From contig NZ_WOTG01000006.1 of NCBI RefSeq assembly GCF_011516925.1, forward strand, positions 62,001 to 126,000: a stretch of 64,000 bases of DNA. The letters are read 5' to 3'. The DNA comes from Acetobacter fabarum (GTDB taxonomy: Bacteria; Pseudomonadota; Alphaproteobacteria; Acetobacterales; Acetobacteraceae). The notes under the pieces are model-generated. The model had not been told where the DNA came from. It saw only the letters and a list, made by a program, of their open reading frames with translations, and made no database searches. The position numbers and the translations under genes were made by a program. Shown one piece after another: positions 11,618-39,408 of this stretch (the first letter of the stretch is position 1; each line of letters begins with the position of its first letter).

Positions 11618-12570
11618 ATGCCAAGCTTGGCATAGCCATTGCCCGCAGGCTTGGCGCATCCTGCGTATCGCTTGTTTTTGTCGTGGTCGCAGTCTTTTTT
11701 ATTACCTCGGCCCTGCCCGGCGATGTTGCGCAATCCCTGCTGGGGCAGGCCGCAACGCCTGATGCAGTTGCAGCCCTGCGCCACAGCCTGCGGCTGGATG
11801 AGCCTGTTCTCCTGCGTTTTGCAAGCTGGGCTGGCGGGTTGCTCCGGGGGGATTTTGGCATGTCTCTGGTCAGCCACCAGTCTGTCATGAGCATGGTGCA
11901 TGAGCGCCTGCTGCACTCCCTTTTGCTCGCGGGCATTACAACGCTGTTTGCCGTTCCCACGGCTTTGCTGCTTGGTACGCTTTCGGCCATATTCCGCAAT
12001 ACGGTTTTTGACCGTTGTGTATCCGTGCTGACACTCTGCGTTGTGTCTGTTCCCGAGTTTCTGGTCGCAACACTGGCGGTGCTGGTGTTTGCCGTGCAGC
12101 TGCACCTGCTGCCCGCCCTTGCCAGTATTAGCGATATTCATTCCATCGGGTCGTTTCTGGCGGCGTTCTCAATGCCAGTCGCCACACTGGGGTGTGTGAT
12201 TGTGGGGCAAATGGCACGCATGACACGCGCCGTTATGGTGAATGTGCTCAGCTCATCATGGGTGGAAATGGCCGTGCTCAAGGGGGTGTCCCCCACCGCC
12301 ATTATCCTGCGCCACGTTTTGCCCAATGTTGTGGCACCACTGTTCAATGTCATGGCGCTCAGCCTTTCCTACCTGCTTGGAGGCGTGGTCATTGTGGAAT
12401 CTGTTTTTCATTACCCCGGGATTGCCAGCCTGATGGTGGATAGCGTGGCATCGCGCGATATTCCGCTGGTACAAACCTGTGCGCTCATCTTCTGTGCTGC
12501 GTATCTGCTGCTAACCACGCTAGCCGATGTTGTGGCCCTGTTTTCCACACAGGAAAGGAGCCGTGCATGA
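11614..12570 (+). CDS. ABC transporter permease, DppB-like
   Basis: This 318-residue inner-membrane protein has six hydrophobic helices and the first-permease signature of dipeptide transporters: an N-terminal helix ending in LPGDVAQ and the EAA loop region EMAVLKGVSPTAIILRHVLPN. It starts inside the stop of the binding-protein gene and its own stop overlaps the next permease. It forms a heterodimeric channel with the DppC-like protein. Confidence 0.9.
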   Translation: MNAKLGIAIARRLGASCVSLVFVVVAVFFITSALPGDVAQSLLGQAATPDAVAALRHSLRLDEPVLLRFASWAGGLLRGDFGMSLVSHQSVMSMVHERLLHSLLLAGITTLFAVPTALLLGTLSAIFRNTVFDRCVSVLTLCVVSVPEFLVATLAVLVFAVQLHLLPALASISDIHSIGSFLAAFSMPVATLGCVIVGQMARMTRAVMVNVLSSSWVEMAVLKGVSPTAIILRHVLPNVVAPLFNVMALSLSYLLGGVVIVESVFHYPGIASLMVDSVASRDIPLVQTCALIFCAAYLLLTTLADVVALFSTQERSRA

Positions 12571-13382
12571 TGCTTGCGTTCCCCCTGCCACGTTACCTGA
12601 CGCCGTTTTTGCAAGCCCCAGCACTGCTCGCCTTGCTGTGGCTTCTGTTAGCCCTTGCTGGACCATGGGTTGCCCCCTACCTGCCCGGAGAAGTAGTCAG
12701 CACCACCGTATTCGCCCCCATATCTGCCAGGCATTGGCTTGGAACGGACTATCTGGGTCGCGATGTGCTGACCCGCCTGCTCTATGGCACCAGCAGCACC
12801 GTACTGCTCTGTGCGGCTTCAACAGTCATGGCTTGTGGCGCGGGGGCCTTTCTGGGCATGATGGCAGCCCTTAAACGGGGCATGACCGATACCCTGCTCT
12901 CGCGCTTTATGGATGGTGTTATTTCCATACCCTCCCTGTTAAGCGGGCTTGTGGCGGTGGCGACCTTTGGCTCCTCCGTGCCGGTGCTTGTGCTGGCAAT
13001 GGCGTGCATTTACCTGCCCGGCTCCTACCGCACATGCCGCATGCTGGCACTGTCCATCGTGCAAAAGGACTTCATCCTTGCCGCACGCATGCGCGGAGAA
13101 AAGACCAGCTATCTGGTCGTGCGGGAAATCCTGCCGAACATGGCTGGTCCCGTGCTGACCGATGTGGGGCTGAGGTTTATTTACGCCGTAAGGTTATTGA
13201 GCAATCTCAGCTTTCTGGGGGTCGGGTTACAGCCCCCACAGACCGACCTGGGCTCCCTCACGCGGGAAAATCTGCTTGGCCTTGTTTACGGAGCACCAGC
13301 AGTTATCGCGCCCGCACTGGCCATTGCGTTCCTAACCGTGGGGCTCAATCTTGCACTGGATGGTAAAGGGCGACACCAATGA
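12567..13382 (+). CDS. ABC transporter permease, DppC-like
   Basis: This 271-residue permease begins with a single helix and then the GTDYLGRDVLTRLLYG motif diagnostic for the second permease of peptide/nickel importers. The EAA-like loop reads ILAARMRGEKTSYLVVREILPN. It overlaps both neighbours by four bases, so the transporter genes are translationally coupled. It pairs with the DppB-like protein in the inner membrane. Confidence 0.9.
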   Translation: MMLAFPLPRYLTPFLQAPALLALLWLLLALAGPWVAPYLPGEVVSTTVFAPISARHWLGTDYLGRDVLTRLLYGTSSTVLLCAASTVMACGAGAFLGMMAALKRGMTDTLLSRFMDGVISIPSLLSGLVAVATFGSSVPVLVLAMACIYLPGSYRTCRMLALSIVQKDFILAARMRGEKTSYLVVREILPNMAGPVLTDVGLRFIYAVRLLSNLSFLGVGLQPPQTDLGSLTRENLLGLVYGAPAVIAPALAIAFLTVGLNLALDGKGRHQ

Positions 13383-26506: not shown

Positions 26507-27868
26507 TTGATTTCGAGAATGTGTGTGCCCTCTTTTAAAGCTTCCTGCGCGGTCTCCGTCGCGTTCTGCCTTCTTGCGGGCTGCACACCACCTAATTTTA
26601 ACACCCCCGGCCCCTTACCGCAGGAAAGCGCCTACAACGCGCTATTCCCCCAATGGGCCGAACTCTGTGCCGTTTCACAAATCTCCAAAAAACCCGGTTA
26701 CGGGGCAGATATTGCCGGGGGACCGGGGGGGCATGCCGTCCTGTTCCTGCATGGGGCCTGTCTGGACCCTTCCTCCCCCTACCCTGTACTCAAAGCCTGC
26801 CCGCAGGGTGAGACCGGGGTGAGCATGAACGCCCATTTTGTAAATGCAAACTGGGTTGGCATACCCGGACGTGCGTTTTTTTATGATGGTATTCTCAAAC
26901 CCGGAGAAGGCCTGACGCGGGAAGCCTACCAGAACACGAAAATGGAAGCACAAAAGCGCGGCCTTTACAGTGCCATTACATTCCGGGACTGGGCGTTGGC
27001 AGACAGGCCAGCCAGCACCCCGGCAGAAGACTGGAAATACGAAGTTTCCATCGGCACGGATTACGCCGTAAGTTACGGGCGCGCCCGATACTGCGCCCGA
27101 TTGCCGGTCAGTTCGACCCAGATGGTCCATATTGTGGACTTTCTAAACAGCCGCAACGCACTGTACCGCTACGGTCCCAAGACATTTGAAACCAATGTCA
27201 TGCAGGATAACTGCAACCATCTTATCCATAATGCACTCGCGGCAACGGACTTCTGGCATGAACTGCCTGTTCATCAGTTCATTCTTCAGGCGGCGCTGAC
27301 CTTCCCTGTTCCCAAAAACGAGGTGGTCAACCTGCTGGACCGGGCAGACCGCCACAAACCGGGTGACCTCCACGCCCTGTTCCATGACCCGCAAACCCGC
27401 CAGACCCTGTTGCGTGATGGTTGGCTACCGGGGGAGCCGGGGGTTATTCTGGACTCTAACCCCGTACAGACCCCCAATACGGTCTATAACACCAACCTGT
27501 CCCTTATTTTTTATGATGACCCGCTGCTTGGCCACTACAACCGGGCATTCAGCCGTTATCTGGCTCAACCGCGTTACCATGACCTGCATGCCAACCTGCT
27601 CTGGTATCAAGCACTTTACGCACAAATCGCGGCGGAACGCCGGCCTTTAGCTGAGTGGCTGAAAAAAGAGCCTGCGGGTTTTGCTGCGTTTTATAATGCC
27701 TATTACATATGGCTCGGCAACCAGCAGGCTCTTGTAGCAAAAGGGCTTAGTTTGCTGCCCGCTTCTTCGCCCATTTCCAGCGCATGGCCGCCAGCACGGA
27801 GCGAAACGCCAGCAGCGGTGCCTGCACCCGCCAGCGCCCCACAAAGTCCCCTGCCAGTAGCGAAATAA
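26507..27868 (+). CDS. Putative lipoprotein with possible permuted papain-like (NlpC/P60 or LRAT-like) domain
   Basis: The 453-residue protein is not a family I can name. It starts at TTG (26507) or ATG (26519); neither has a strong ribosome-binding site. A lipobox LLAGC (22-26) after a hydrophobic stretch indicates a lipid-anchored periplasmic protein. Two motifs stand out: GGPGGHAVLFLHG (His76) and DNCNHLIHNAL (Cys236). His before an Asn-Cys pair is the order in permuted NlpC/P60, LRAT and Lnb/DUF4105-like thiol hydrolases, so an amidase or acyltransferase is possible (inference). The C-terminus is Pro/Ala-rich low complexity. The gene overlaps the convergent polyene-cluster flavoprotein gene by 122 bases. 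Confidence 0.7.
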   Translation: MISRMCVPSFKASCAVSVAFCLLAGCTPPNFNTPGPLPQESAYNALFPQWAELCAVSQISKKPGYGADIAGGPGGHAVLFLHGACLDPSSPYPVLKACPQGETGVSMNAHFVNANWVGIPGRAFFYDGILKPGEGLTREAYQNTKMEAQKRGLYSAITFRDWALADRPASTPAEDWKYEVSIGTDYAVSYGRARYCARLPVSSTQMVHIVDFLNSRNALYRYGPKTFETNVMQDNCNHLIHNALAATDFWHELPVHQFILQAALTFPVPKNEVVNLLDRADRHKPGDLHALFHDPQTRQTLLRDGWLPGEPGVILDSNPVQTPNTVYNTNLSLIFYDDPLLGHYNRAFSRYLAQPRYHDLHANLLWYQALYAQIAAERRPLAEWLKKEPAGFAAFYNAYYIWLGNQQALVAKGLSLLPASSPISSAWPPARSETPAAVPAPASAPQSPLPVAK

Positions 27869-29015
27869 TGGCGTCACGCATACGCAGGATATTCCGGGGG
27901 TTGAGGAATAACTCCCGTTGCACCGGGTCGTTAATCCCGTAAATCAGCCAGGCGACGCGGCGCATTTCCTGCCGTGTGCAGTATTCCTCACGCCGGGCAG
28001 CCTTGCGCCCCTGTGCGGGGCTGCGCAGCCATGCGCGCGCCACCCGGGCTCCACGGTAAGCACTCTTCATGGCCAGCAGCACACCGGACGAAAACACAGG
28101 GTCCAGGAACGCAAACGCATCCCCGATCATGTAATACCCTTCCCCCCATGTTTTGTCCGCGCAATAGGAGTAGTTTCCGGTGGTTGTCAGTTCCCCCAAC
28201 TGTTCCGCTGGTGCTAGACGCTGTGAGACACTCGGGCTTTCCGCCACCTTTTTCCAGAACAGGTCTGTTTTGGGACCGGTATGGGAGCTGAACGCATTTT
28301 TATCCCCCACAAAACCAACGCTCATAATGTTGTCACGCAGGGGGATCATCCAGAACCATCCGTCATCCACCAGATGGATGGAAATATAACCTTCCATATC
28401 CGCTTCACGGCGTTCAACATTGCGGAAATGCGCAAAAATGGCGGCTGTAGAGTTGTTTTTATCAGCATGCCGCGTATGCAAACGCCGCGCCAGAAATCCG
28501 TCCCGCCCGGATGCATCCAGCACAAAGCGGGGCGTAAAGGTGTGGGTTTGCCCAGCCTCGTCCTGCGCAATAACCTGCGTTGGCTGGCGGGGCGTAAAAC
28601 GGGCTTCTGTTACCCGCAGACCTTCAAGGGTTTCCACCCCATGCGCCTGAGCATTGCGGAACAGGATTTCATCAAACTCAGAGCGCCTGACCTGATACGC
28701 ATGCGTATCCTTCGGGCTGATTGCATGACTGAAGGGAAAAGCCAGCCGCCCCTCCCCCCGGTCCGACACAAATTCGGCACCGGGTTTAAATACCCCGATC
28801 TCGCGCACCTTATCCAGCACGCCAATGTCGCGGAGCAGCTCCATGTTGCAGGGCAGCAGGGATTCACCAATATGGAAGCGGGGATGCGGATCTTTTTCCA
28901 GCATAATGACCGACACACCCTGCCGGGCCAGCAACGTGGCGGCTGTGCTCCCCGCAGGCCCGCCACCAATAACCAGAACATCGCATTCCCGCGCAGACAT
29001 ATCAGAACCACTCAT
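27747..29015 (-). CDS. FAD-dependent oxidoreductase of the halogenase family, aryl polyene cluster
   Basis: The 422-residue flavoprotein has the GxGxxG site VIGGGPAGSTAATLLARQG (16-34) and the GESLLP motif (50-55). It has a W-x-W-x-I-P motif (WFWMIP, 220-225), the hallmark of FAD-dependent halogenases such as PrnA and PltA. It is the last gene of the polyene operon, with an ATGA overlap with the ketoreductase. Related proteins occur in xanthomonadin and flexirubin clusters, where halogenated or otherwise modified aryl heads are known. It could halogenate an ACP-bound aryl group or act as a plain monooxygenase or reductase (geranylgeranyl-reductase-like relatives share the fold). The 3' end overlaps the lipoprotein gene on the other strand. 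Confidence 0.8.
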   Translation of the reverse strand: MSGSDMSARECDVLVIGGGPAGSTAATLLARQGVSVIMLEKDPHPRFHIGESLLPCNMELLRDIGVLDKVREIGVFKPGAEFVSDRGEGRLAFPFSHAISPKDTHAYQVRRSEFDEILFRNAQAHGVETLEGLRVTEARFTPRQPTQVIAQDEAGQTHTFTPRFVLDASGRDGFLARRLHTRHADKNNSTAAIFAHFRNVERREADMEGYISIHLVDDGWFWMIPLRDNIMSVGFVGDKNAFSSHTGPKTDLFWKKVAESPSVSQRLAPAEQLGELTTTGNYSYCADKTWGEGYYMIGDAFAFLDPVFSSGVLLAMKSAYRGARVARAWLRSPAQGRKAARREEYCTRQEMRRVAWLIYGINDPVQRELFLNPRNILRMRDAIISLLAGDFVGRWRVQAPLLAFRSVLAAMRWKWAKKRAAN

Positions 29016-29731
29016 GCCATACCCCCATTAACCCCTATGGTCTGCCCCGAAATGTAGGCAGCTTGTTCCGAGGCCAGAAACCCTACCAGATCAGCCACTT
29101 CCTCCGGTTGCCCCGCACGGCGGGCCGGAACCACAGCGGCAATATCTGCATCGCTCATAACCGCCGCCGTAGCGGGGGAAGCAATAATGCCCGGCGCTAT
29201 GGCATTCACTGTAATGCCGCGGCTGCCAACTTCGCGCGCAAGGGAGCGTACTGCCCCCTCCAGCCCGGCTTTTGCCGCGCCGTAATTGACCTGCCCCCTG
29301 TTCCCCATCTGCGCGGTAATGGACGACAGGGCAATAATACGCCCCCAGCGGGTGCGGGTCAGGGGAAGCAGCAGCGGTTGCACCACGTTAAAAAAACCAT
29401 CCAGCGATACGGCCAGCACATCCCGCCACTGGGCTGGGGCCATACCCGCCATTGTTACGTCATCATGGGTGCCTGCATTATGGACAATAACCTGCGGAAC
29501 GCCCGCTTCCAGCACTGGAGTCAGGGCCTGTCTGGTCGCATTGGCATCTGTCAGGTCACAGCACCATAATTCAGTGGAGCCACCTTCGGCCCGTATGCGC
29601 TCCACAACCTCCTGCGCCTTGCTGCGTGAGGCATGGGCATGCACCAGAACATGCAAGCCATTCCCCGCCAGTTTATGGCAAATGGCAGCCCCAATCGGGC
29701 TGCTGCCGCCGGTTACGAGTGCGCGCTTCAT
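29012..29731 (-). CDS. 3-oxoacyl-ACP reductase (FabG-like, ApeQ type)
   Basis: The 239-residue short-chain dehydrogenase has the NADPH loop TGGSSPIG (8-15), NAG (85-87), catalytic Ser136/137, and Tyr150-xxx-Lys154 in VNYGAAKAG. The C-terminus SGQTIGVNGGM is classic for FabG. It reduces the beta-keto group of each polyene extension unit on ACP. It overlaps the dehydratase gene upstream and the flavoprotein gene downstream by four bases. Confidence 0.9.
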   Translation of the reverse strand: MKRALVTGGSSPIGAAICHKLAGNGLHVLVHAHASRSKAQEVVERIRAEGGSTELWCCDLTDANATRQALTPVLEAGVPQVIVHNAGTHDDVTMAGMAPAQWRDVLAVSLDGFFNVVQPLLLPLTRTRWGRIIALSSITAQMGNRGQVNYGAAKAGLEGAVRSLAREVGSRGITVNAIAPGIIASPATAAVMSDADIAAVVPARRAGQPEEVADLVGFLASEQAAYISGQTIGVNGGMA

Positions 29732-30198
29732 TCAGCCCGCCCTGCACCAGCTACAGCGCGTTGAAACATGACTGTCCCGCGACCTTGCAAAAGCAGATCC
29801 CCCGGCTGGGAATGAACGGAAAAACCATAAACCATACCAGCGCTATCGACCTGCTCGCGCAGGACGTCAATCTGCAACAGGCCATATTCTGCACAATCCA
29901 GCCGGTCGCACTGCGCCTGCAGGTCACGCAGGGCTGCCAGATAACCGCCGGTTCTGGCCATGGTCTGCCCTGTAAGGGCACCATGGAGGGCCGCGGCCTG
30001 CATGGCCATTTCCGCCCCGACCAGCACCCCCAGCTGCCCAGCATGGCGCAACGGGTTATCCGGATGCAAATGGACCGCTGTATGCGCACGCAATGTGGTA
30101 TCCGACCAGAAGGAGCAGGTATCCAGCAGGCAACTCGCACCCTGATGCGGGATTAAGGCCAGAATATCCACGCGCTCCAGCTTTACACGCTCTAACAT
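29728..30198 (-). CDS. 3-hydroxyacyl-ACP dehydratase, hotdog fold (ApeP-like)
   Basis: The 156-residue protein has the N-terminal segment LIPHQGASCLLD typical of ApeP/FabA-like dehydratases. It then has HLHPDNPLR and a long helix with LVGAEMAMQAAALHG. It should remove water from the hydroxyacyl-ACP made by the ketoreductase, giving conjugated double bonds. Overlaps of seven and four bases with neighbours place it inside the operon. Confidence 0.82.
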   Translation of the reverse strand: MLERVKLERVDILALIPHQGASCLLDTCSFWSDTTLRAHTAVHLHPDNPLRHAGQLGVLVGAEMAMQAAALHGALTGQTMARTGGYLAALRDLQAQCDRLDCAEYGLLQIDVLREQVDSAGMVYGFSVHSQPGDLLLQGRGTVMFQRAVAGAGRAE

Positions 30199-30986
30199 GG
30201 CTTTACCTCCGCCAGAATGGTCCCCGGCTGGCAGGCCATATGCACAATGCCCTCCTGCCCGCTGGCAATCTGCTGGAGTAATGCCAGCCCCCCTGCCGCG
30301 GGGTTACTCCGCGCAAGCTCTGCAAGTTGGGGTGGCAAGGTTGTATCCTGCGCCACGGCGCCGGGAGCATGGGTTATATCCAGCGTGCAAACCGCGCCCT
30401 GCCTAGCCTGTGGCACCAGCACAAAGGCGCAACCAAATGTGTTGTGCGTAATACGGACTTTGCCAATTGGTCCGGGTATAGGCAGGTCATAGGCCACAAA
30501 TAGCACGGGCGCATTTTCCACCACACATTCGGCAGCCGCCTTGAGCAACCCTTGCGCAAAAGACCAGTCATAACACCCCAATGCCACAACGGGGGCCAGA
30601 CTGGCGTGCCCTATGGTCCAGTACCCTGCAGGCGCATTGTGCACCGAGTTATGAAACTGGGTCGGAGAAACCTCCCCTCCGGGCGTGCTCAGGGCGGTTA
30701 AAATACTATCCACCACAGCTCCATCCCCATTGGAACTGGCAAATACTCCCCTTATGTCTGCCGCCTGTACGCCTGCCTGCGCGCAGGCTTCCTCCGCCAG
30801 CGCAATTGCCAGCCGGGTTAACGGGCCACACCGCCGCCGCTCATTGGCAGGCAGGCAGGTAGCAGGCGGAACCTGTACCGGTGCGGGTGCCCAATCTTCC
30901 TGCCCTTGCAAAACGCGTGCGGCATGTGGCCACCCAGACAAACCCGGTCCCCAGACCGAAATCCCTTGTACAGAAACCCGCATCAC
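30192..30986 (-). CDS. Beta-ketoacyl synthase-like chain-length factor (ApeC-like)
   Basis: The 264-residue protein is a shortened ketosynthase N-terminal fold. The place of the active Cys reads HNSVHNAPAGYW with no cysteine, so it cannot condense on its own. This is what is known for chain-length factors, which pair with an active ketosynthase and set polyene length. It overlaps the ketosynthase gene (30983) by four bases, supporting an obligate heterodimer. Confidence 0.85.
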   Translation of the reverse strand: MMRVSVQGISVWGPGLSGWPHAARVLQGQEDWAPAPVQVPPATCLPANERRRCGPLTRLAIALAEEACAQAGVQAADIRGVFASSNGDGAVVDSILTALSTPGGEVSPTQFHNSVHNAPAGYWTIGHASLAPVVALGCYDWSFAQGLLKAAAECVVENAPVLFVAYDLPIPGPIGKVRITHNTFGCAFVLVPQARQGAVCTLDITHAPGAVAQDTTLPPQLAELARSNPAAGGLALLQQIASGQEGIVHMACQPGTILAEVKPC

Positions 30987-32173
30987 ACGCCCTCAAAAAT
31001 CAGGCTGCAATTGGTTCCACCAAAACCAAAAGCATTGCTCATTACCCGCTGGACCGGCTTATGGAGTGTGTCTGTCAGCACATGGCTGTTAAATGTGGGG
31101 TCAATCTGCTGCACATTCAGGCAGCCCGGCGCAAATCCTGCCCGCATCATCACAAGAGCAAACATGGCCTCGATAATCCCGGAGGCCCCCAGAGTATGCC
31201 CCGTCCAGCCTTTGGTGGAGGAACAGGGCACACTACGGCCAAACAGGGTATGCACGGCGTGGTCCTCCATGGCGTCATTCACAACCGTACCGGTCCCATG
31301 CAGATTGATATAGTCCAGTTGCGAGGCATCCAGTCCGGCCCGTTCCAGCGCCTCACGCATGGCCGCCACAGCCCCGCGTGCCAGCGGATCGGGGGAGGAC
31401 ATATGGTGGCCATCACTACTCACCCCATAACCGACCCACCGCCCCATGACCTCAGCACCAGAGCGCGCTCCTTCACGCTCGAGCAGAACAAAGCCTGCCC
31501 CTTCCCCTACGGAAATGCCGGTGCGCTGTGCATCGCACGGGCGGGTTGGTTCCGCACTCACCAGCCCGAGGGCGGCAAACCCCCTTAATGTCATACGGCA
31601 CAGGCTGTCTGCCCCGCCAACGACAACGGCATCACACAGCCCGGCCTCCAGCCAGTGACGGGCATCCACAAATGCACGGGATGAAGAGGCACAGGCGTTG
31701 GAAACACTCAGTATTGGCCCTTCCAACCCCAGCCGTGCCGCGACAAACCGGGGGAGTGAGAACAGGTCCTGCGTATGGGCCTGATCAAACTCCGGGGGCG
31801 GTGCACCAGTGACCGGGTCCAGTGCTTCATAGGCATCTTCGGCTGAGAGAATACCAGACGTGGAAGTGCCCAGCACCACGGCAATCCTATAGGCACCATA
31901 AAACTGGCGGGCACTCTGCACTGCCTGCGCAAACCCATCCTGCGCACAGGCCATATCCGCCAACTGGTTGTTGCGGCACGTAAAGCCGGGGGCAACTCCC
32001 TCCAGCACATGCGTGCCAGCTTGTGGCACACAGCCGACATAGCCTGTTTTTATTCCGGCAAAGTCACATGGTGTTAGCCCCGAACGGCGTGCCAGCAGCG
32101 CATCTTCGGTCGCGGCCAATCCTCGCCCGATTGCGCTCAGGACTGTTCCAGCGGTTATGGCGAGTGGTTTCAT
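30983..32173 (-). CDS. Beta-ketoacyl-ACP synthase, active type (ApeO-like)
   Basis: The 396-residue ketosynthase keeps the full catalytic triad: Cys161 in SVSNACASSS, His292 in LHGTGTVVND and His326 in KGWTGHTLGA. The C-terminus has SNAFGFGGTN. It condenses malonyl-ACP units with the growing aryl polyene chain, with the adjacent chain-length factor as partner. It is the only active ketosynthase in this window, while several characterised clusters carry two or three. Translational overlap exists on both sides. Confidence 0.92.
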   Translation of the reverse strand: MKPLAITAGTVLSAIGRGLAATEDALLARRSGLTPCDFAGIKTGYVGCVPQAGTHVLEGVAPGFTCRNNQLADMACAQDGFAQAVQSARQFYGAYRIAVVLGTSTSGILSAEDAYEALDPVTGAPPPEFDQAHTQDLFSLPRFVAARLGLEGPILSVSNACASSSRAFVDARHWLEAGLCDAVVVGGADSLCRMTLRGFAALGLVSAEPTRPCDAQRTGISVGEGAGFVLLEREGARSGAEVMGRWVGYGVSSDGHHMSSPDPLARGAVAAMREALERAGLDASQLDYINLHGTGTVVNDAMEDHAVHTLFGRSVPCSSTKGWTGHTLGASGIIEAMFALVMMRAGFAPGCLNVQQIDPTFNSHVLTDTLHKPVQRVMSNAFGFGGTNCSLIFEGV

Positions 32174-34506
32174 GGTCGGTCTGGTGGTCCAATATTCGGG
32201 CGTTGTCCAGCCAGAAGAAAGCCGTAGATCATGGCTAACGCAACACCAAAAGCAACGGTTATCCCAATTTCGCGCAGTAATGGGGTCTGGCAGGCTGCCA
32301 GAAGGCCAAAAGTCAGCACGGTCATGGCATTGCAGGTCAGCAATGTGCGCATGGTTCTGGCTCGTTCTTCCGCGTCCAACTGGGGGCGTGCAAAGAACAG
32401 AGCGTAATCCAGACTAACCCCCAGCACAAACTGCAGGGCAATCAGATGAATGAGTGTAAGGGGCTGATGTAACAGGGCAAACGCCCCCAGCACCGTAATC
32501 TGCACCGCCCCCACAGCCCCGATTACGCGGAACATACGTCTGGCATCGCGCAGGCCAACCAGCAGCACGACAAACGCCAGCACACACCCGACGGCCATCC
32601 AACGCAATGTACGGCCTGTGTGGTAGGCCGAGAGGCTATCCACTTCCTTCCGCATATCCAGCACCAGAACATCCGGTTGCCCAGCCAGTGCGTGTTCTAC
32701 AGCCTGATGGTCCTTCACACTTTCCGGAAAAACGAGGCCGAACCATTGCCCGCCCCGTGCAAACAGCAAGGGAGCCATTGCCGCCCCAACCGGCGTGCCC
32801 AGCATATCCTGCGGTAATAACGGGGGCATTTGCCGTGCACGCGCCACATCAGCCACAAATGCATCAAAGGCTGTCGCACGGAAGGGTAGTCCCTCCTTTG
32901 CCTGTGCAATAGCAACCTGCAACGCGGCCGGGGGTGGCAACTGGCTGGCCCGGCTGCGCTGCATCTGCACCGAAGGCAGTAAACGTGCCGCCTCCTGCAC
33001 GCCTGCCAGTGCGCCCTTTTGCTGCAATTGCGCCCATACTGGTGCCAGAGCCTCCTCCCGCTCCAGCACTGCCTGCGCATTCTGCCCTGAGACTGCCAGC
33101 ATGAGTGAAGAGTCCGGCACACCAAGATCACGGCGTAATGAATCGTCCAGTCGCAGGGTTTTCTCTGGCAGGGGGCTAAGGGCTGTAAGGCGAGTGTCCA
33201 TAAGCGGGGGAGAACGCCATAACGCCACCGCGCAGAACATAACAGGCAGGCAGGCCAGAACCCGGTAGCGCCGCCAGCCTTCTGCCACAGCCAAAGGCCC
33301 GGACGGCCCACTCACATGCGGTGCCAGATCCGCTGCTACGACCAGTCTGGGCATGATATGCAGGGTAACAAGCGCTGCCACCACAAGCCCTACGGCAGCA
33401 AACACGCCCAGTTGCGCCAGCCCGGGCAGCCCGCAAAACACCATGCCGGTTAGCCCCAGCACAGCCGTTGCAACACCCAGCCGCAAACTATGGCCAATAC
33501 GGTGCAGAGTTGCCTGTGGGCCTTCACCATGGTCACGGTGCCCGATAAGCAGCACCGGGTAATCCAGCGCCACACCCAGCATGGTCATACCAAAGCCGAA
33601 TGCAATGCCATGCACAAAGCCAAAGGCCAGACGCACGACAAGCATGGCAACACTCAACGAGAGCAAAAACGGCACACCAATAGCTGCCAGCACCCACAGC
33701 GAGCGGAACCGCCAGTAAAGAATACTCACAACCAGCGCAAAGGAGCACAGCGCCATCATATCCACATCGCGCCGCATGCCCGCCGCACTGGACACGGCAA
33801 AAACTGACGGGCCGCTCATGAGCAGTCTGGCCGAACCGGGGTGCAAGGCGGCAAATGCCGCCGTTATGGTCTGTTCAACATGAGCCTGCCGGGCAAGGTC
33901 CATACCCGGGGCCTGCGTGCGCAACAACAGCAGGGCACGTGGCCGGTCCGGCGCAAACCAGACGCCCTGCACCACTCGAACACGCACATCCGGCTCCAAT
34001 GCGCGCACGGTCTGCACAAACGCGTTTGTCGGGTCCCGCAGGAGTGCATCCGACAAAACAGAGCCTGCGGCGGAATCCAGCCCATCCAGAACATTGGAAA
34101 ACGCCTGCGCCAGTGCCTGTGCATCCAGCTTGCGCACAGAATTATCGGGGGCAAGCTGGTAGCGATGCTCAAACAGGAGATTACGCAAGGTCTCGGCCTG
34201 ATCCGTGGCAAAAACACCATTCAGGACAGAAACAAACTGGGGATCCCCTGCAAGGGCTGTGTGCAGGCCCAGACTAAGCCGGGCAAGTTCGGGCTCGGGA
34301 GCTCCCTCCACCCCCAGCATGATAACAGTGCCCGCTACACCGCCCTGCACTTCGCGTAATAAAAAGCGCGTTCCGTCATCATGGCCTTTGGGCAAAAAAC
34401 CCGCCATATCCATCCGCAGCGGGATATTCAGGAACACCAGCACGGCAAACAGAACCGACACCGCCAGCGTTATGGCCAGAACCCCGGGTTTTCTACGCGG
34501 CCTCAC
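32170..34506 (-). CDS. MMPL/RND-family exporter of the polyene cluster
   Basis: The 778-residue inner-membrane protein has an N-terminal helix, a large periplasmic domain, a block of helices around residues 240-400, a second periplasmic domain and a final helix block. This is the two-fold RND/MMPL layout. The segment GVALDYPVLLIGHRDHGEG and its C-terminal counterpart SLDYALFFARPQLDAEER are typical of these transporters. With the LolA-like protein it should move the lipid-linked polyene to the outer membrane. The start is GTG overlapping the lolA-like stop. Confidence 0.87.
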   Translation of the reverse strand: MRPRRKPGVLAITLAVSVLFAVLVFLNIPLRMDMAGFLPKGHDDGTRFLLREVQGGVAGTVIMLGVEGAPEPELARLSLGLHTALAGDPQFVSVLNGVFATDQAETLRNLLFEHRYQLAPDNSVRKLDAQALAQAFSNVLDGLDSAAGSVLSDALLRDPTNAFVQTVRALEPDVRVRVVQGVWFAPDRPRALLLLRTQAPGMDLARQAHVEQTITAAFAALHPGSARLLMSGPSVFAVSSAAGMRRDVDMMALCSFALVVSILYWRFRSLWVLAAIGVPFLLSLSVAMLVVRLAFGFVHGIAFGFGMTMLGVALDYPVLLIGHRDHGEGPQATLHRIGHSLRLGVATAVLGLTGMVFCGLPGLAQLGVFAAVGLVVAALVTLHIMPRLVVAADLAPHVSGPSGPLAVAEGWRRYRVLACLPVMFCAVALWRSPPLMDTRLTALSPLPEKTLRLDDSLRRDLGVPDSSLMLAVSGQNAQAVLEREEALAPVWAQLQQKGALAGVQEAARLLPSVQMQRSRASQLPPPAALQVAIAQAKEGLPFRATAFDAFVADVARARQMPPLLPQDMLGTPVGAAMAPLLFARGGQWFGLVFPESVKDHQAVEHALAGQPDVLVLDMRKEVDSLSAYHTGRTLRWMAVGCVLAFVVLLVGLRDARRMFRVIGAVGAVQITVLGAFALLHQPLTLIHLIALQFVLGVSLDYALFFARPQLDAEERARTMRTLLTCNAMTVLTFGLLAACQTPLLREIGITVAFGVALAMIYGFLLAGQRPNIGPPDRP

Positions 34507-35078
34507 GGGTCGAGGGTCAGGGTTTGCACATCCCCATTAGCCTGCACAATCTTCAGGCTCTGTATGGCGTTATTGCGCCCCTTCAGCACGACCAGACGCA
34601 CCAGATGCACCGCCTGCGGGGAAAGAGGTGCCATATTAAGTGTCCATGCGCCAAGGTCGCCCTGTGCACTCAGGGTGTAATCATGCGTCAGGCTTGCCAT
34701 GTCCCCTTCCAGCGGTGCGCGCATGGTTGTGACCAGCAGTGCAAGAGCAGGGCTTTGCGACAGCGGCACATTATGCACACTCCCCGCCCCCCGCTGGATG
34801 GAGACCATACTCCCGTCAATCACCAGTTTTTCGGGGCGTGGGGCCTGCGTGTTTTTCTCCAGATATGCGGGGCGATGGAACAGCAGCACGCCACTGGAAA
34901 GCAATGGGTGCGTAAGAGCCGCCATATCCTTTTGTTCATGGAAAGGCTGCGCACGCTCGGGCACCTGCCCCAGATGGGCAATAATCTGCCCGGTCAGGTC
35001 TGTTCCGTTATCGACCGCCCATGCCTGCCCCATGCCTGCAAGCAGCCCCCATGCCACCAGAAGAGAAAAAACTTTCAC
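34503..35078 (-). CDS. LolA-like outer-membrane lipoprotein carrier of the polyene cluster
   Basis: The 191-residue protein has a signal peptide (MKVFSLLVAWGLLAG, cleavage after AWA) and a beta-rich LolA-like fold with GVLLFHRPAYLEK near residue 60. LolA-like proteins of such clusters are thought to carry the hydrophobic product through the periplasm. It starts with GTG inside the end of the acyltransferase gene and overlaps the exporter gene by four bases. Confidence 0.8.
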   Translation of the reverse strand: MKVFSLLVAWGLLAGMGQAWAVDNGTDLTGQIIAHLGQVPERAQPFHEQKDMAALTHPLLSSGVLLFHRPAYLEKNTQAPRPEKLVIDGSMVSIQRGAGSVHNVPLSQSPALALLVTTMRAPLEGDMASLTHDYTLSAQGDLGAWTLNMAPLSPQAVHLVRLVVLKGRNNAIQSLKIVQANGDVQTLTLDP

Positions 35079-35977
35079 GGCAGGTCTTTCCAGTAATCAT
35101 AAAAATTAAACCATGAGAACGGGTGCCTGCGGCACAGCGCCTCCATCCAGCCCGCGTATCGCTCCGCCGCCTGTTGCCCAAAAGCGGATCGCCCCTGCCG
35201 GGATGTGGGGTATGCCACACCAAACGGCACAAAATTTACGTCATAAACACCATCTGCTGCACGTATGGCGCTTACGAGCACAATGGGAGCGCCTGTAGCC
35301 ATCCCCAGCCGGAAAGGCCCTTCGGGGAGCAAAACATCCCCCCCCAGCATTTTTGTGCGGATACACCGATCTGTATCGGGCGTTCTGTCCCCCAGAATAC
35401 CAACCACTTCCCCCCGCCCCAGGCTTTCCGCAACGCGGAGCATGGTATCCACCTGCCCGATGGCAATAATGGTTTGTGCGTAAGTAGGGTCCAGCGCTTC
35501 CAGCACATCTGTGGCTCCCCCCAGATTGGAGCGGTACATGAGCATGCGCAATGTTATACCGTGCTCCCGCCCCAGAGACCTGAGCGCTTCAAACGACCCG
35601 ATATGCGCCCCCAGCAAAAGGCACCCTCGCCCACCCGCCAGAGCCTGCAAAAAGCACTCCCGCCCCGTAACCCGCACATGTGGCATGTCCGTGGTGTTTT
35701 GCAGAAAAAAAATACGGTCCAGCACAACCTGTGCGAAGCACCGCATATGCCGCATAATGGTGGTTATTGTAGGGCGAACAGGCAAAGCACGACGCAAATA
35801 AGCGCGCGATGCCCGACGGGCCGCCCCGTTATGCAGAAAAAAATACAGCGTAATGGGGCCAAGAAGCCACTCCAGCCGCCGCCTTCCAACCTTGCGGGCC
35901 AGAAGCAGCGCAACCTGCATGGCAAACCGGTTACCCCGCTCCGGCACAACCCAGCGCCTGTCAGCCGTGCGTGGCAT
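35075..35977 (-). CDS. LpxL/HtrB-like acyltransferase of the polyene cluster
   Basis: The 300-residue protein has the H-x4-E catalytic motif (His125 and Glu130 in GAHIGSFEA) and the downstream LGDRTPDT and LLPEGPFRLG blocks of the LpxL family. In polyene clusters this type of enzyme is believed to attach the chain to a lipid or sugar carrier at the inner membrane. It overlaps the ligase-dehydratase gene by 17 bases. Confidence 0.82.
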   Translation of the reverse strand: MPRTADRRWVVPERGNRFAMQVALLLARKVGRRRLEWLLGPITLYFFLHNGAARRASRAYLRRALPVRPTITTIMRHMRCFAQVVLDRIFFLQNTTDMPHVRVTGRECFLQALAGGRGCLLLGAHIGSFEALRSLGREHGITLRMLMYRSNLGGATDVLEALDPTYAQTIIAIGQVDTMLRVAESLGRGEVVGILGDRTPDTDRCIRTKMLGGDVLLPEGPFRLGMATGAPIVLVSAIRAADGVYDVNFVPFGVAYPTSRQGRSAFGQQAAERYAGWMEALCRRHPFSWFNFYDYWKDLP

Positions 35978-37622
35978 GCTCTTGTTTTGCCTTCAACACG
36001 GCCCGCATGACAGGCTGATCATTCAACTTGGCGGTCAGGCGCACAACGGAACCTGTACTCCGGGCCAGAAAAATCACTTTCTGGCCCGGAAGAACCGGAT
36101 GCAGGAATTTGACCATATCCACATGCAACCCGGCTTGCCCCAACTGTTCCAGCCCGGCCTCCAGCAGCAAAACACCGGGCACAACCGGATTGCCGGGAAA
36201 ATGGCCCGGCAGGCAGGGATGATCAGAAGGCAGCGTAAAAGACCCGACTTCCTCCTCCTGCATGGCCTGCCCTGCCATGGCACGCAACGCCTGCAAGGTG
36301 AGCTTACCCAACGCATTGCGGGGTAAGGCAGGTACCAGTCTGACGCTACGCGGCAGAAAAACCGGCTCAATCTGCTCCCGCAGGGACAGCAGAATGCTCT
36401 GGGCACTCAAGGTGGAGGATACGGCAAAAACCTGCATCCGGGCCAGAACATTGGTGGCTTCACCTTCAGGAGGCAGAAATGCCCCATCCTCCACACCGGG
36501 AATGGCGTTTAATACTGCATTCAGCGCAGCAAGAGACGTCCGCTTGCCACCCAGCTTGACCACGTCCTTCATGCGGCCCAGCAGCAAAAATGTGCCATCG
36601 CTCTGAGTTTGAATAAAATCGGCGAGCAGATAGCTCGGCACACCCGGTGCTGAAACTTCAACACCATCAGTACTTTCATGCGGAGTGACACCTTTATACC
36701 ACTGCCAGTGTGCCCCGCTCACCGTCCGCCGGATGGCCATGGAACCTGTTTCTGTCGAACCGTAGATCTCGGTCACTTCTGTCCCAAGCACTTCCTCCGC
36801 CTCAGCGGCAAGCTCAGGCGCAAGCGGAGCCGAGGCCGAGACCACGCGCCGGATAGCTGGCCAAGCCAACCCCGAACGCAACATGGTACGCAACTGCAAA
36901 GGTGTTGTGACCAGAATGCGCGGGGCAAAAGCCCGGTTCAGGCTGGCCTGCCAGTCCGCCGGGTAACCACCGCCCCCTGCAACCACGGTAACGCGCGTGT
37001 TCAGGCATTGCAGCACCAATGCCTCAAACCCGTACATATGGTACGGCGGTACAGTGCCAACCAGACAGGCCGGGGCATCATCCGGGTCCAGCAGCACGCG
37101 TGCTGTTACGCTGCGTGTAACCAGCCCACCCCAGTATTTACGATGCCCGACCGGTTGCCCTGTGCTCCCCGAGGTAAAAACCAGCGCCACCAGTGTTTCC
37201 GGCTTGATGACAGGGTTATGGCAGGGCTGAGCCGCACTTTCAGCCGATGGAGGCATTGCCAGAACATCTGGCACTGTTAGCCCGCTACCGGCGAGCAATG
37301 CGCTCTCGGCATCTCCCTCAACACTGACACAGACGGCATTATGCTCCTGCGCAAGCTCTGCCAACCGGGCGGGATTACGCTCGCTGCTCAACAGCACATG
37401 CTGCCCCCGCAGCAAGGTTGCTGCAAACAGGAGTGTAAAATGGCTCACACCTGAGCAGACAGGCACAATCGGGCAGTCTGGCAGCAAGGCAGCCACCGCA
37501 TGGGCGGCATGCAGAAAACTCCACCCTGTAACAGCCCCCTGATCGGTCAGAAAAAGCGATCTGTCAGGAGCATAAACAAGGGAAAGATCAGGCCATTGCT
37601 GGTCAGGCCTCATATTGGGCAT
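35961..37622 (-). CDS. Fused acyl-ACP/CoA ligase and hotdog dehydratase (ApeH-ApeI type)
   Basis: The 553-residue protein has an N-terminal adenylation domain with the P-loop FTSGSTGQPVGH (149-160), and PRNALGK carrying the A10 lysine. From about residue 462 a FabZ-like hotdog domain follows, containing HFPGNPVVPGV (474-484). The first part should activate the aryl starter acid and load it onto ACP. The second part should dehydrate early intermediates. In some clusters these are two genes; here they are one chain. The start at 37622 has GGGTGA a few bases upstream and lies six bases after the ACP stop; an earlier in-frame start would overlap ACP. Confidence 0.88.
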   Translation of the reverse strand: MPNMRPDQQWPDLSLVYAPDRSLFLTDQGAVTGWSFLHAAHAVAALLPDCPIVPVCSGVSHFTLLFAATLLRGQHVLLSSERNPARLAELAQEHNAVCVSVEGDAESALLAGSGLTVPDVLAMPPSAESAAQPCHNPVIKPETLVALVFTSGSTGQPVGHRKYWGGLVTRSVTARVLLDPDDAPACLVGTVPPYHMYGFEALVLQCLNTRVTVVAGGGGYPADWQASLNRAFAPRILVTTPLQLRTMLRSGLAWPAIRRVVSASAPLAPELAAEAEEVLGTEVTEIYGSTETGSMAIRRTVSGAHWQWYKGVTPHESTDGVEVSAPGVPSYLLADFIQTQSDGTFLLLGRMKDVVKLGGKRTSLAALNAVLNAIPGVEDGAFLPPEGEATNVLARMQVFAVSSTLSAQSILLSLREQIEPVFLPRSVRLVPALPRNALGKLTLQALRAMAGQAMQEEEVGSFTLPSDHPCLPGHFPGNPVVPGVLLLEAGLEQLGQAGLHVDMVKFLHPVLPGQKVIFLARSTGSVVRLTAKLNDQPVMRAVLKAKQEHATHG

Positions 37623-37627
37623 CAGAT

Positions 37628-37927
37628 TCACCCAGCAGTGCGATTTGCCTGCACAAATGCGCACAAAGACCGCAAGGAGCTAAAAATCTTTTTGTTATCC
37701 GGGTCTTCCGACCGCAGGGCCACGCCGTAATCACGCCCGACAAACAGGGCAATTTCAAGCGCATCAATGGAATCAAGACCCAGCCCTTCCCCAAACAGGG
37801 GGGCCTCGGGAGCAATTTCTTCAGCCGTGACTTCAAGCTGAAGTGCTGCAACAAGCCGTTCTGCAACTTCATGCTCAAAAGGCGTTTGTATTGTTGTCGA
37901 GCGGGTCGTATTCACAGCATGTCTCAT
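37628..37927 (-). CDS. Acyl carrier protein of the polyene cluster
   Basis: The 99-residue protein has the phosphopantetheine site LGLDSIDALE with Ser53, in an acidic helical ACP fold. The start is uncertain: ATG at 37927 gives a normal N-terminus, a GTG 12 bases later is possible, and the open frame continues upstream without a clear ribosome-binding site. It is the only ACP seen in the cluster. Its 5' end is close to the start of a gene on the opposite strand, so its promoter must lie inside that gene or farther upstream. Confidence 0.88.
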   Translation of the reverse strand: MRHAVNTTRSTTIQTPFEHEVAERLVAALQLEVTAEEIAPEAPLFGEGLGLDSIDALEIALFVGRDYGVALRSEDPDNKKIFSSLRSLCAFVQANRTAG

Positions 37928-37943
37928 GTTAAGTGCAGATATC

Positions 37944-38630
37944 ATGAGTGAGCTAACACAAACACGCATTATCGCAAAGCCAACATGGCTGGAAAGACAC
38001 ACAGCTTTCCGGCGTGGGGCTGGTGCTATGCTTGTGTCCCTATCAATTCTTCTTTGGCATATACCCTATACACCTTACGCAGCAATTCCCGTTAGTGTTA
38101 TCTCGCTTCTCATGCAGTGCATGGCGTTTGCTCTACTAAGCCTGCACCTTAAAACAAGTGCTGTTATGGCTATCTGCTTGGTGCCTTTGGCCGTGCACTG
38201 GCCACACCAGGCAACAGTTGCCGATGGCTGCGTGCTTTATGCGGCTTCTCTGGGGATGATGCTGTTCGTTTTTGGCCGCTCCCTTTTGCCATCCCGGCAG
38301 CCGCTTGTTGCTGTTATGGCCAGCCGGGTACATGGCCCCTTGCGGGCGGATATTGCACGCTACACACACGTACTAACGGTTTTTTGGACCATGTTTTTTG
38401 CCGCAGCCCTGACCACACCGCCGCTGCTGTTCTGGTTCGGGCCTGCTGGCATATGGCAATGGCCGCTCTCTGGGGGCACATTTGCCATGGCGCTGTTGTT
38501 CATGGTTATGGAGGCAGGTGTCAGGCGCCTTGTCATACGCGACTTCCAGCACGTATCACTCAGGACGACGATAGCGGCTTTCCGCAACACACACGCCTCG
38601 CCCATGCAAACAACAACCTCAGATGCATAA
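37944..38630 (+). CDS. COG4648-type integral membrane protein of aryl polyene clusters
   Basis: The 228-residue protein has about six hydrophobic segments. Its central motif GMMLFVFGRSLLPSRQPLV, followed by VHGPLRADIARYTHVLT, is characteristic of the COG4648 membrane proteins found in aryl polyene clusters. The role is unknown. It is transcribed opposite to its neighbours: its 5' end is 16 bases from the ACP start and its 3' end overlaps the convergent glycosyltransferase gene by 71 bases. An in-frame ATG 18 bases upstream is an alternative start and would overlap the ACP start. Neither start has a good ribosome-binding site. Confidence 0.78.
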   Translation: MSELTQTRIIAKPTWLERHTAFRRGAGAMLVSLSILLWHIPYTPYAAIPVSVISLLMQCMAFALLSLHLKTSAVMAICLVPLAVHWPHQATVADGCVLYAASLGMMLFVFGRSLLPSRQPLVAVMASRVHGPLRADIARYTHVLTVFWTMFFAAALTTPPLLFWFGPAGIWQWPLSGGTFAMALLFMVMEAGVRRLVIRDFQHVSLRTTIAAFRNTHASPMQTTTSDA

Positions 38631-39300
38631 AAACGAGCCGTGTGTTGTCCCGCACATAATGGAAATGGGAAATCCCCCCTTCGGCTGCGTTAAAATACTG
38701 CACAACAGCGGGTTTATTGAGTGCGGGCACTCCCTGCCAGACCATACGCGCGGCAACCTCCGGATCAAAATCAAAGCCGCGCATAAAGCGTGATGCCTGA
38801 AGAACCATGACCAGTGGTTTGAGTGGATAAACCCTAAAACCAAACAGGCAATCTTTAACAGCGCCCCCTGTTTCCATATCAATGAGGATATTGGATAACT
38901 TGCGCCCCCACACGCGCAGAGCGGGTGCTTCTGACCCAAAGACTGGCACGCCCAGTACCAGAGCCTGCGGAGCGGAGCGGGAGAGCGCAATAAAATCCGG
39001 CACAGCCTGCGCTGGGTGCTGGCCATCTGCATCCATGGTCAAGGCATGCGTGTAGCCTGCCTGCAAGGCCCACAACGCCCCTTGCAAAACCGCGTGCCCC
39101 TTGCCCCCATTTTGTGCCAGATGCAGGATTTTGAGCCCTGCATGCGCTGGCAGCATATCATCCAGTGTACGGTCGCTGCCATCGGTACTGCCATCTGTAA
39201 CCACCACTACATCCGGCCAGACCGCCAGCACGGCAGAAACCGTGCTCCGCAGCAAAAGCCCGGAGTTATAGGATGGAACAAGAACAATACAGCGGAACAT
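38560..39300 (-). CDS. Family 2 glycosyltransferase of the polyene cluster
   Basis: The 246-residue GT2 protein starts with CIVLVPSYNSGLLLR and has DGSTDGS and the metal-binding DADGQHP. The later region RFMRGFDFDPEVAARMVWQG contains the GT2 acceptor-side motifs. It is related to dolichol-phosphate-mannose synthase-like enzymes in polyene clusters and may glycosylate the lipid or aryl part. ATG at 39300 is preferred because AGGT precedes it; another ATG lies nine bases upstream. Confidence 0.85.
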   Translation of the reverse strand: MFRCIVLVPSYNSGLLLRSTVSAVLAVWPDVVVVTDGSTDGSDRTLDDMLPAHAGLKILHLAQNGGKGHAVLQGALWALQAGYTHALTMDADGQHPAQAVPDFIALSRSAPQALVLGVPVFGSEAPALRVWGRKLSNILIDMETGGAVKDCLFGFRVYPLKPLVMVLQASRFMRGFDFDPEVAARMVWQGVPALNKPAVVQYFNAAEGGISHFHYVRDNTRLVFMHLRLLFAWARRVCCGKPLSSS

Positions 39301-39408
39301 GGCAGGCATACCTGTGGGTCAAAACCAGAATAAAATACAGCAAGACTGGTCCACATACCTCAATTACGGTAAGAACCGAATACCAAGATCATTGAACCGG
39401 AAATGGCA

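Follow-up and report, generated by a model that had tools for sequence, protein, structure and literature searches.

The gene, its motifs and its predicted fold

Aryl polyenes rank among the most widespread pigments of bacteria, and a gene named halogenase is often part of their clusters. Here, we analysed such a gene in a 64,000-nucleotide stretch of Acetobacter fabarum DNA (contig NZ_WOTG01000006.1, positions 62,001 to 126,000), which belongs to a genome of 3.08 Mb; this whole stretch is called the window below. The gene occupies positions 27747-29015 of the minus strand as an open reading frame (ORF) of 422 codons with an ATG start, and frame 1 of the plus strand is interrupted by stops across the same positions. 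A preliminary description of the window, made from its letters, had placed a flavoprotein gene at the right coordinates; its strand is minus. The gene and the motifs that concern us most are as follows:

27747..29015, minus strand: XanB1-like protein of the flavin-dependent halogenase (FDH) type, 422 amino acids (ORF, Pfam, PDB matches, alignment, predicted fold, identities)
28950..28967, minus strand: FAD-binding motif GGGPAG, residues 17-22 (protein motif, alignment)
28785..28787, minus strand: K77, in the column of the FDH catalytic lysine (alignment)
28341..28358, minus strand: WFWMIP (WxWxIP), residues 220-225 (alignment)
28083..28109, minus strand: tunnel motif Fx.Px.Sx.G, F303..P306..S309.G311 (alignment; motif as given in the accessible part of PMC8407142)

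The GxGxxG, GESLLP and WxWxIP motifs named in the preliminary description are indeed present, at residues 17-22, 50-55 and 220-225. Reviews give the lysine, WxWxIP and Fx.Px.Sx.G as features of FDHs; one of them proposes that WxWxIP prevents hydroxylation and reports a loss of halogenation when the lysine is replaced.

The protein was aligned with 141 homologues, giving 142 family rows: 33 from its own family (the window included), 88 of the Xanthomonas or beta-gamma type (with a few Azospirillum sequences and sequences of metagenome-assembled genomes from other groups) and 21 of a third, more distant type. Eight FDH references (CndH, CmlS, FasV, RadH, the Bmp2 triple mutant, Mpy16, ChlB4 and SgcC3), the PDB entry 3nix, three named relatives, three BchP proteins and one UbiH-like row were added. 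The results clearly showed that K77, W220, W222, I224, P225, F303, P306, S309 and G311 are identical in all 142 family rows and are also common to the eight FDH references and 3nix. The three BchP rows, which come from the same family, lack the lysine, WxWxIP and Fx.Px.Sx.G, and the UbiH-like row differs as well. The FAD-binding motif is nearly as constant, with its three glycines in 142/142 rows and GxGPxG in 141/142, and the complete GESLLP is found in 128/142.

The ratio of nonsynonymous to synonymous substitution rates (dN/dS) was computable for five of six pairs, and dS exceeded 1 in three of these five. It was 0.036-0.063 against three homologues of the same genus and 0.054 and 0.110 against two of other genera, thus indicating that the gene is under purifying selection. 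The Pfam model Trp_halogenase matched the protein with an E-value of 3.2e-30 (105.8 bits, cut-off 21). A chance motif or a decayed gene is ruled out by the conservation over 142 rows, dN/dS and this score.

Among the NCBIfam models, the best was CmlS (NF033113; 199.5 bits, cut-off 900); QhpG (NF049967) gave 166.6 bits (cut-off 240) and the geranylgeranyl reductase model GG-red-SF (TIGR02032) 121.9 bits (cut-off 158.8). Since all three scores fall below the cut-offs, the protein is a member of the superfamily that belongs to none of these named families. In a sequence search of the PDB, the ten distinct sequences with the lowest E-values (4.5e-53 to 6.2e-43) were nine FDHs and 3nix; PltM and CtcP followed at about 1e-19, and the first reductase appeared at 3.8e-8.

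An AlphaFold2 model built from 60 sequences had a mean predicted local distance difference test score (pLDDT) of 91.1 and a predicted template modelling score (pTM) of 0.91. Its VIA-align Z scores were 48.7 with 3nix, 48.6 with the Bmp2 triple mutant, 48.0 with FasV, 47.7 with Bmp2, 47.0 with ChlB4, 46.8 with PltA and 46.7 with Mpy16; these seven top entries, six of which are FDHs, align over 386-401 residues. CndH (42.7), RadH (41.9) and CmlS (38.4) scored lower, and hydroxylases began at 36.4. Among the 50 Foldseek matches listed, one entry, 3oz2, resembles geranylgeranyl reductases, and it ranked 49th. The likeness of a fold is alone insufficient to show function. Taken together, the motifs, the lysine and the modelled structure support a protein of FDH type, in keeping with the preliminary description, and make halogenase catalysis plausible.

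The operon and its distribution

The gene overlaps the ketoreductase ORF by four bases (29012-29015), as had been noticed earlier, and is the terminal gene of a tightly packed minus-strand operon. The order of the operon is acyl carrier protein (ACP), a fusion of an AMP ligase with a FabA-like domain, acyltransferase, LolA-like carrier, MMPL exporter, ketosynthase, a protein resembling a chain length factor, a dehydratase-like protein, ketoreductase and the halogenase-type gene. This gene content identifies the locus as an aryl polyene cluster and, along with the co-occurrence described below, bears out the earlier proposal that the gene belongs to such a cluster. The other genes are:

29012..29731, minus strand: FabG-type ketoreductase (overlaps the halogenase-type gene by 4 bases; profile matches)
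29728..30198, minus strand: ApeP-like dehydratase (homology and position; no Pfam or NCBIfam match)
30192..30986, minus strand: ketosynthase-like chain length factor (Ketoacyl-synt_2; the Azospirillum gene in the same place is annotated as chain length factor)
30983..32173, minus strand: aryl polyene beta-ketoacyl-ACP synthase (profile matches; search of the family's genomes)
32170..34506, minus strand: MMPL-family exporter (Pfam)
34503..35078, minus strand: LolA-like carrier (profile matches)
35075..35977, minus strand: acyltransferase, Lip_A_acyltrans (Pfam)
35961..37664, minus strand: AMP ligase fused to a FabA-like domain (Pfam; the true start is probably somewhat inside the ORF)
37628..37927, minus strand: ACP (PP-binding, E-value 5.9e-7)
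38560..39309, minus strand: family 2 glycosyltransferase (Pfam; other genomes have homologues close to the halogenase-type gene)

The ApeP-like dehydratase has a homologue in the same place in Azospirillum (locus L172; 42%), and the gene in its place in Azospirillum ramasamyi is annotated as hydroxymyristoyl-ACP dehydratase. The AMP ligase and FabA-like domain share a single ORF here; in Azospirillum and Roseomonas, the AMP-binding gene is shorter and a small separate gene comes after it. The glycosyltransferase lies farther upstream on the same strand, with an ORF of the opposite strand intervening. At the other end, a plus-strand ORF of 453 codons (26507-27868) with a lipoprotein-like start and no Pfam match runs antisense to the 3′ end of the halogenase-type gene, overlapping it by 122 bases; its relatives adjoin the halogenase-type gene elsewhere (L088, L089, L090, L092 and L095). 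Neither an Rfam nor a tRNA scan of the window yielded a match. Parts of the 23 kb that were searched match plasmid genes of Acetobacter and Komagataeibacter at about 80-84%.

The protein (E-value at most 1e-40) and the cluster ketosynthase (at most 1e-60) were sought in 249 genomes of the family, the window's own included, and were found in 87 and 89 of them, respectively; the family is taken to be Acetobacteraceae from the plasmid-gene matches and from the grouping of Roseomonas with it in the tree. Both were present in 82 genomes, 5 had the protein alone, 7 the ketosynthase alone and 155 neither; by genus (n = 102), the corresponding numbers were 45, 1, 4 and 52. These counts depend on the cut-offs, and kinship is corrected by genus grouping only. 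The co-occurrence indicates that the protein is a real part of the pathway. In some genomes (G062, G160), the gene lies away from the ketosynthase, which argues that the co-occurrence is more than hitch-hiking within one operon.

The gene is patchy in its own genus, where it was found in 12 of the 49 genomes (the window's included), with identities ranging from 98% down to 66%. A strain-specific insertion is not supported, given these numbers and the 87 of 249 genomes of the family. In one genome (G659), the gene is in two pieces, one with a stop inside, and is perhaps a broken copy. In another genus of the family, one aryl polyene cluster (L094, G201:C17, at 9408 and 10846; also G158:C25) contains two tandem halogenase-type genes, whose products share 59% and 55% identity with the window protein; they perhaps serve two halogenation sites.

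Beyond the family, a sample of the phylum gave a match in 57 of the 398 genomes (the window's included). We also inspected 80 named loci, the best 80 of at least 585 relatives, found with a Xanthomonadaceae-like query, so that the sample is biased to that group. Neighbours were called by tblastn (E-value at most 1e-3) with the window's own proteins as queries, which is a loose test. At least three of the nine other aryl polyene gene types were nearby in 16/20 own-family stretches, 6/8 of the beta-gamma type and 10/12 of the distant type, and on the stretch in 52 of the 80 named loci. None of the nine types was found on 23 of the 80, some of these stretches being short, which counts against strict linkage. 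XanB1-like genes of Frateuria, Dyella, Rhodanobacter and Pinirhizobacter (L149, L159, L165, L167 and L182) have none of the nine types on their stretches; the cluster may there be elsewhere or lost. In a plasmid record of Acinetobacter baumannii (L198), a distant-type protein annotated only as NAD(P)/FAD-dependent oxidoreductase is encoded within an aryl polyene operon (11995-13290), just before a DUF3261 gene.

A starter-making chorismatase type shared the locus in 50 of the 80 named loci, in 45 of these directly downstream on the same strand at less than 500 bases, and none was on the stretch in the other 30. This adjacency points to the starter as a possible substrate.

Two halogenase-like proteins in Xanthomonas and the tree

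Xanthomonadins can have one bromine on the ring and one on the chain. All seven Xanthomonas genomes among the 80 named loci encode two FDH-like proteins each. The relative of the window protein lies between the ACP gene and a XanB2-type chorismatase in 7/7 loci, the chorismatase lying downstream in the same orientation, at 252-267 bases from the matched region. A figure legend of PMC3838355, a source available in part, calls XanB1 a "putative reductase/halogenase" and gives a separate gene H as the halogenase. Gene order in that legend suggests that the protein adjacent to XanB2 is XanB1, and its place near the cluster's other end that the second protein is probably gene H. The window protein shares 43-44% identity with the XanB2-adjacent protein (X. 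arboricola, X. hortorum) and 26% with the second one (540 amino acids, X. arboricola).

Eight proteins of the 540-residue type all have WxWxIP and Fx.Px.Sx.G, and six have the lysine in the expected surroundings. Of the 80 named genomes, 36 were searched for the second protein, and 22 of these have it. The genome of Pseudoxanthomonas jiangsuensis (L115) likewise encodes both FDH-like proteins. With the 540-residue query, 33 of the 249 family genomes gave a match at an E-value of at most 1e-20; 18 of these are the XanB1-like gene by position, and the other 15 have 30-40% identity. No relative was found in the window genome at this threshold. As Xanthomonas has two FDH-like proteins and the window one is of the XanB2-adjacent type, only an experiment could assign the bromine of xanthomonadin to the XanB1-like protein. 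The preliminary description had argued from brominated xanthomonadins to a possible halogenase; as stated, this argument is not supported, being weakened by the two Xanthomonas proteins and by a halogen-free pigment, arcuflavin, discussed below.

The tree comprised 68 hand-picked rows, PltA, QhpG and the 540-residue Xanthomonas protein being outside the selection. The own-family proteins (window and Roseomonas among them) formed one clade (100/100) and the five Xanthomonas rows a separate one (100/100). The eight known halogenases and 11 distant-type rows, including 3nix and Acinetobacter, made up a supported group (98/99), and BchP and UbiH were far from the window protein. Because of long branches (UbiH 8.15, Bmp2 2.45, RadH 2.12), the deeper order is unsafe, and only the coarse split is used. 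The preliminary description had set a halogenase against a placement among reductases: the grouping with BchP reductases was absent, and a grouping with proven halogenases, for which PltA had been named, did not emerge.

Possible function and known systems

We see about an even chance that the window protein is an active, XanB1-like FDH that tailors the product of the aryl polyene pathway by halogenating its carrier-bound aryl head. The basis for this reading is the motifs, the predicted fold, the operon position, the co-occurrence with the pathway and the purifying selection; in addition, an ACP and an AMP ligase suited to a carrier-bound aryl starter are encoded in the cluster. The course of catalysis, the halide used, the tethering of the substrate and the ring position attacked are what we infer from these. 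In the proposed scheme, the GxGxxG domain would take up free FADH2 supplied by a general flavin reductase, and O2 would react with the bound flavin to give a C4a-hydroperoxide, which a halide, likely chloride, would convert to hypohalous acid (HOX). HOX would pass through a tunnel lined by F303, P306, S309 and G311 to K77, which would activate it; the electron-rich hydroxyphenyl head, tethered meanwhile to the cluster's own ACP, would then attack. WxWxIP would stop hydroxylation of the substrate at the flavin. One Flavin_Reduct gene lies elsewhere in the genome, and a single flavin reductase is in principle adequate for a two-component FDH. According to the available part of a review, "variant B" FDHs act on carrier-bound phenols or pyrroles, and ChlB4 is postulated to act on tethered 6-methylsalicylate.

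Several points weigh against this reading. The Azoarcus sp. BH72 cluster has arcA, annotated as a halogenase, beside arcB, which encodes a chorismatase of XanB2 type. The pigment of this cluster, arcuflavin (C41H52O4), contains no halogen, and the authors call its polyene nonbrominated. The flavoprotein QhpG, as described in a source available in part, hydroxylates though its Trp181 and Trp183 line a channel matching the tunnel for hypochlorous acid, so that the W motif proves nothing by itself. According to PMC3838355, xanthomonadin synthesis cannot do without a set of ORFs that includes XanB1; this goes beyond the expectation for a tailoring enzyme. The bromine of xanthomonadin can stem from the second FDH-like protein in all seven Xanthomonas genomes. 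The own-family and Xanthomonas clades stand outside the 98/99 group that holds the halogenases, with long branches nearby. Neither the XanB2-type chorismatase family (PF21168) nor UbiC (PF04345) was found in the window genome, though a hydroxybenzoate starter would be expected; the window protein is XanB1-like by sequence and not an example of the xanB1-xanB2 gene pair.

A pathway enzyme of halogenase fold might leave the product halogen-free, either by acting as a flavin monooxygenase on an intermediate or on the aryl head itself, or through cryptic halogenation in which the halogen is later lost. The second option of the preliminary description, another modification of the aryl head, may thus still apply. 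Arcuflavin, the reported requirement for XanB1 and the hydroxylating QhpG all fit such a role, as does the presence of the gene in 82 of the 89 family genomes with the ketosynthase, which is odd for a decoration; a distant type with the same motifs is encoded within the aryl polyene clusters of, among others, Acinetobacter. The strict conservation of K77, WxWxIP and Fx.Px.Sx.G speaks for halogenation instead, the reviewed passages tying WxWxIP to a block on hydroxylation and the lysine to halogenation, and usable halide may have been short for Azoarcus. Moreover, Lysobacter enzymogenes makes its pigment from a cluster that has no halogenase gene, so that the step is dispensable there. Halogenation might alternatively fall on the polyene chain or a chain intermediate, the Xanthomonas pair then serving two bromination sites: xanthomonadins carry 0-2 bromines in the source passages, and both Xanthomonas proteins have WxWxIP and Fx.Px.Sx.G. 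The gene is often beside the starter-making chorismatase, however, and several neighbours in fold act on aryl or pyrrole rings. In view of arcuflavin, QhpG and the requirement for XanB1 set against Lysobacter, we keep halogenation of the aryl head at an even chance, treat a non-halogenating or cryptic role as a minority possibility and regard halogenation elsewhere as unlikely.

A flavoprotein resembling geranylgeranyl reductases and lacking halogenase chemistry is very improbable. The 121.9 bits on TIGR02032 and the word "reductase" in the XanB1 legend of PMC3838355 favour it; that score is under the cut-off, the BchP proteins lack the key residues and fall outside in the tree, and 3oz2 comes almost last among the Foldseek matches listed. 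The score, the tree and the alignment led us to reject it as unlikely.

A more general proposal, which we advance tentatively and on balance doubt, is that the XanB1-like proteins form a branch of their own within the halogenase fold; they would be almost obligatory for many aryl polyene pathways and would leave the product free of halogen, through cryptic halogenation of the carrier-bound aryl starter or as hydroxylases that keep the full signature. If so, halogenation motifs would be misleading for one of the commonest bacterial pigment pathways.

A 2021 survey (PMC8776678) had already reported a probable halogenase among the ketosynthase-linked genes of Acetobacteraceae aryl polyene clusters and expected undescribed products; its accessible passages hold no analysis of residues, structure, co-occurrence or XanB1. 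What is new here is the evidence from residues and fold, the co-occurrence and the likeness to XanB1 rather than to the second Xanthomonas protein. Judged from titles and abstract openings, no report of a chlorinated aryl polyene was found, nor a test of a XanB1-like enzyme in the literature covered, most subscription papers lying outside it.

Known FDHs such as ChlB4, PltA, Mpy16, Bmp2, FasV and CndH have a fold in common with the predicted model, but their identity over the structural alignments is 29-32%; SgcC3, which has no structure in that comparison, is 33.7% identical by sequence. The eight in the tree belong to different pathways and a separate branch. The Cytophaga hutchinsonii "flavoprotein/dehydrogenase" 3nix is the top profile match and, tied with Bmp2 and FasV, the top fold match; its entry title names no function, and it sits with the distant Acinetobacter-type proteins. 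Xanthomonas XanB1 has the same motifs and, like the window gene, lies among aryl polyene genes, but it is flanked by ACP and XanB2-type genes and accompanied by a second FDH-like protein, and neither the chorismatase nor the second protein was found in the window genome. Our analysis thus tells apart the two halogenase-like genes of Xanthomonas, and bromination is not safely assignable to the type carried by the window; an organism with only the XanB1-like type and a compact operon offers a clean setting for the question of function. Like the XanB1 pair, ArcA of Azoarcus is a halogenase-annotated protein adjoining a XanB2-type gene in an aryl polyene cluster, as far as the accessible passages describe it, and the arcA-arcB gene order suggests that it may belong to the same XanB1-like group.

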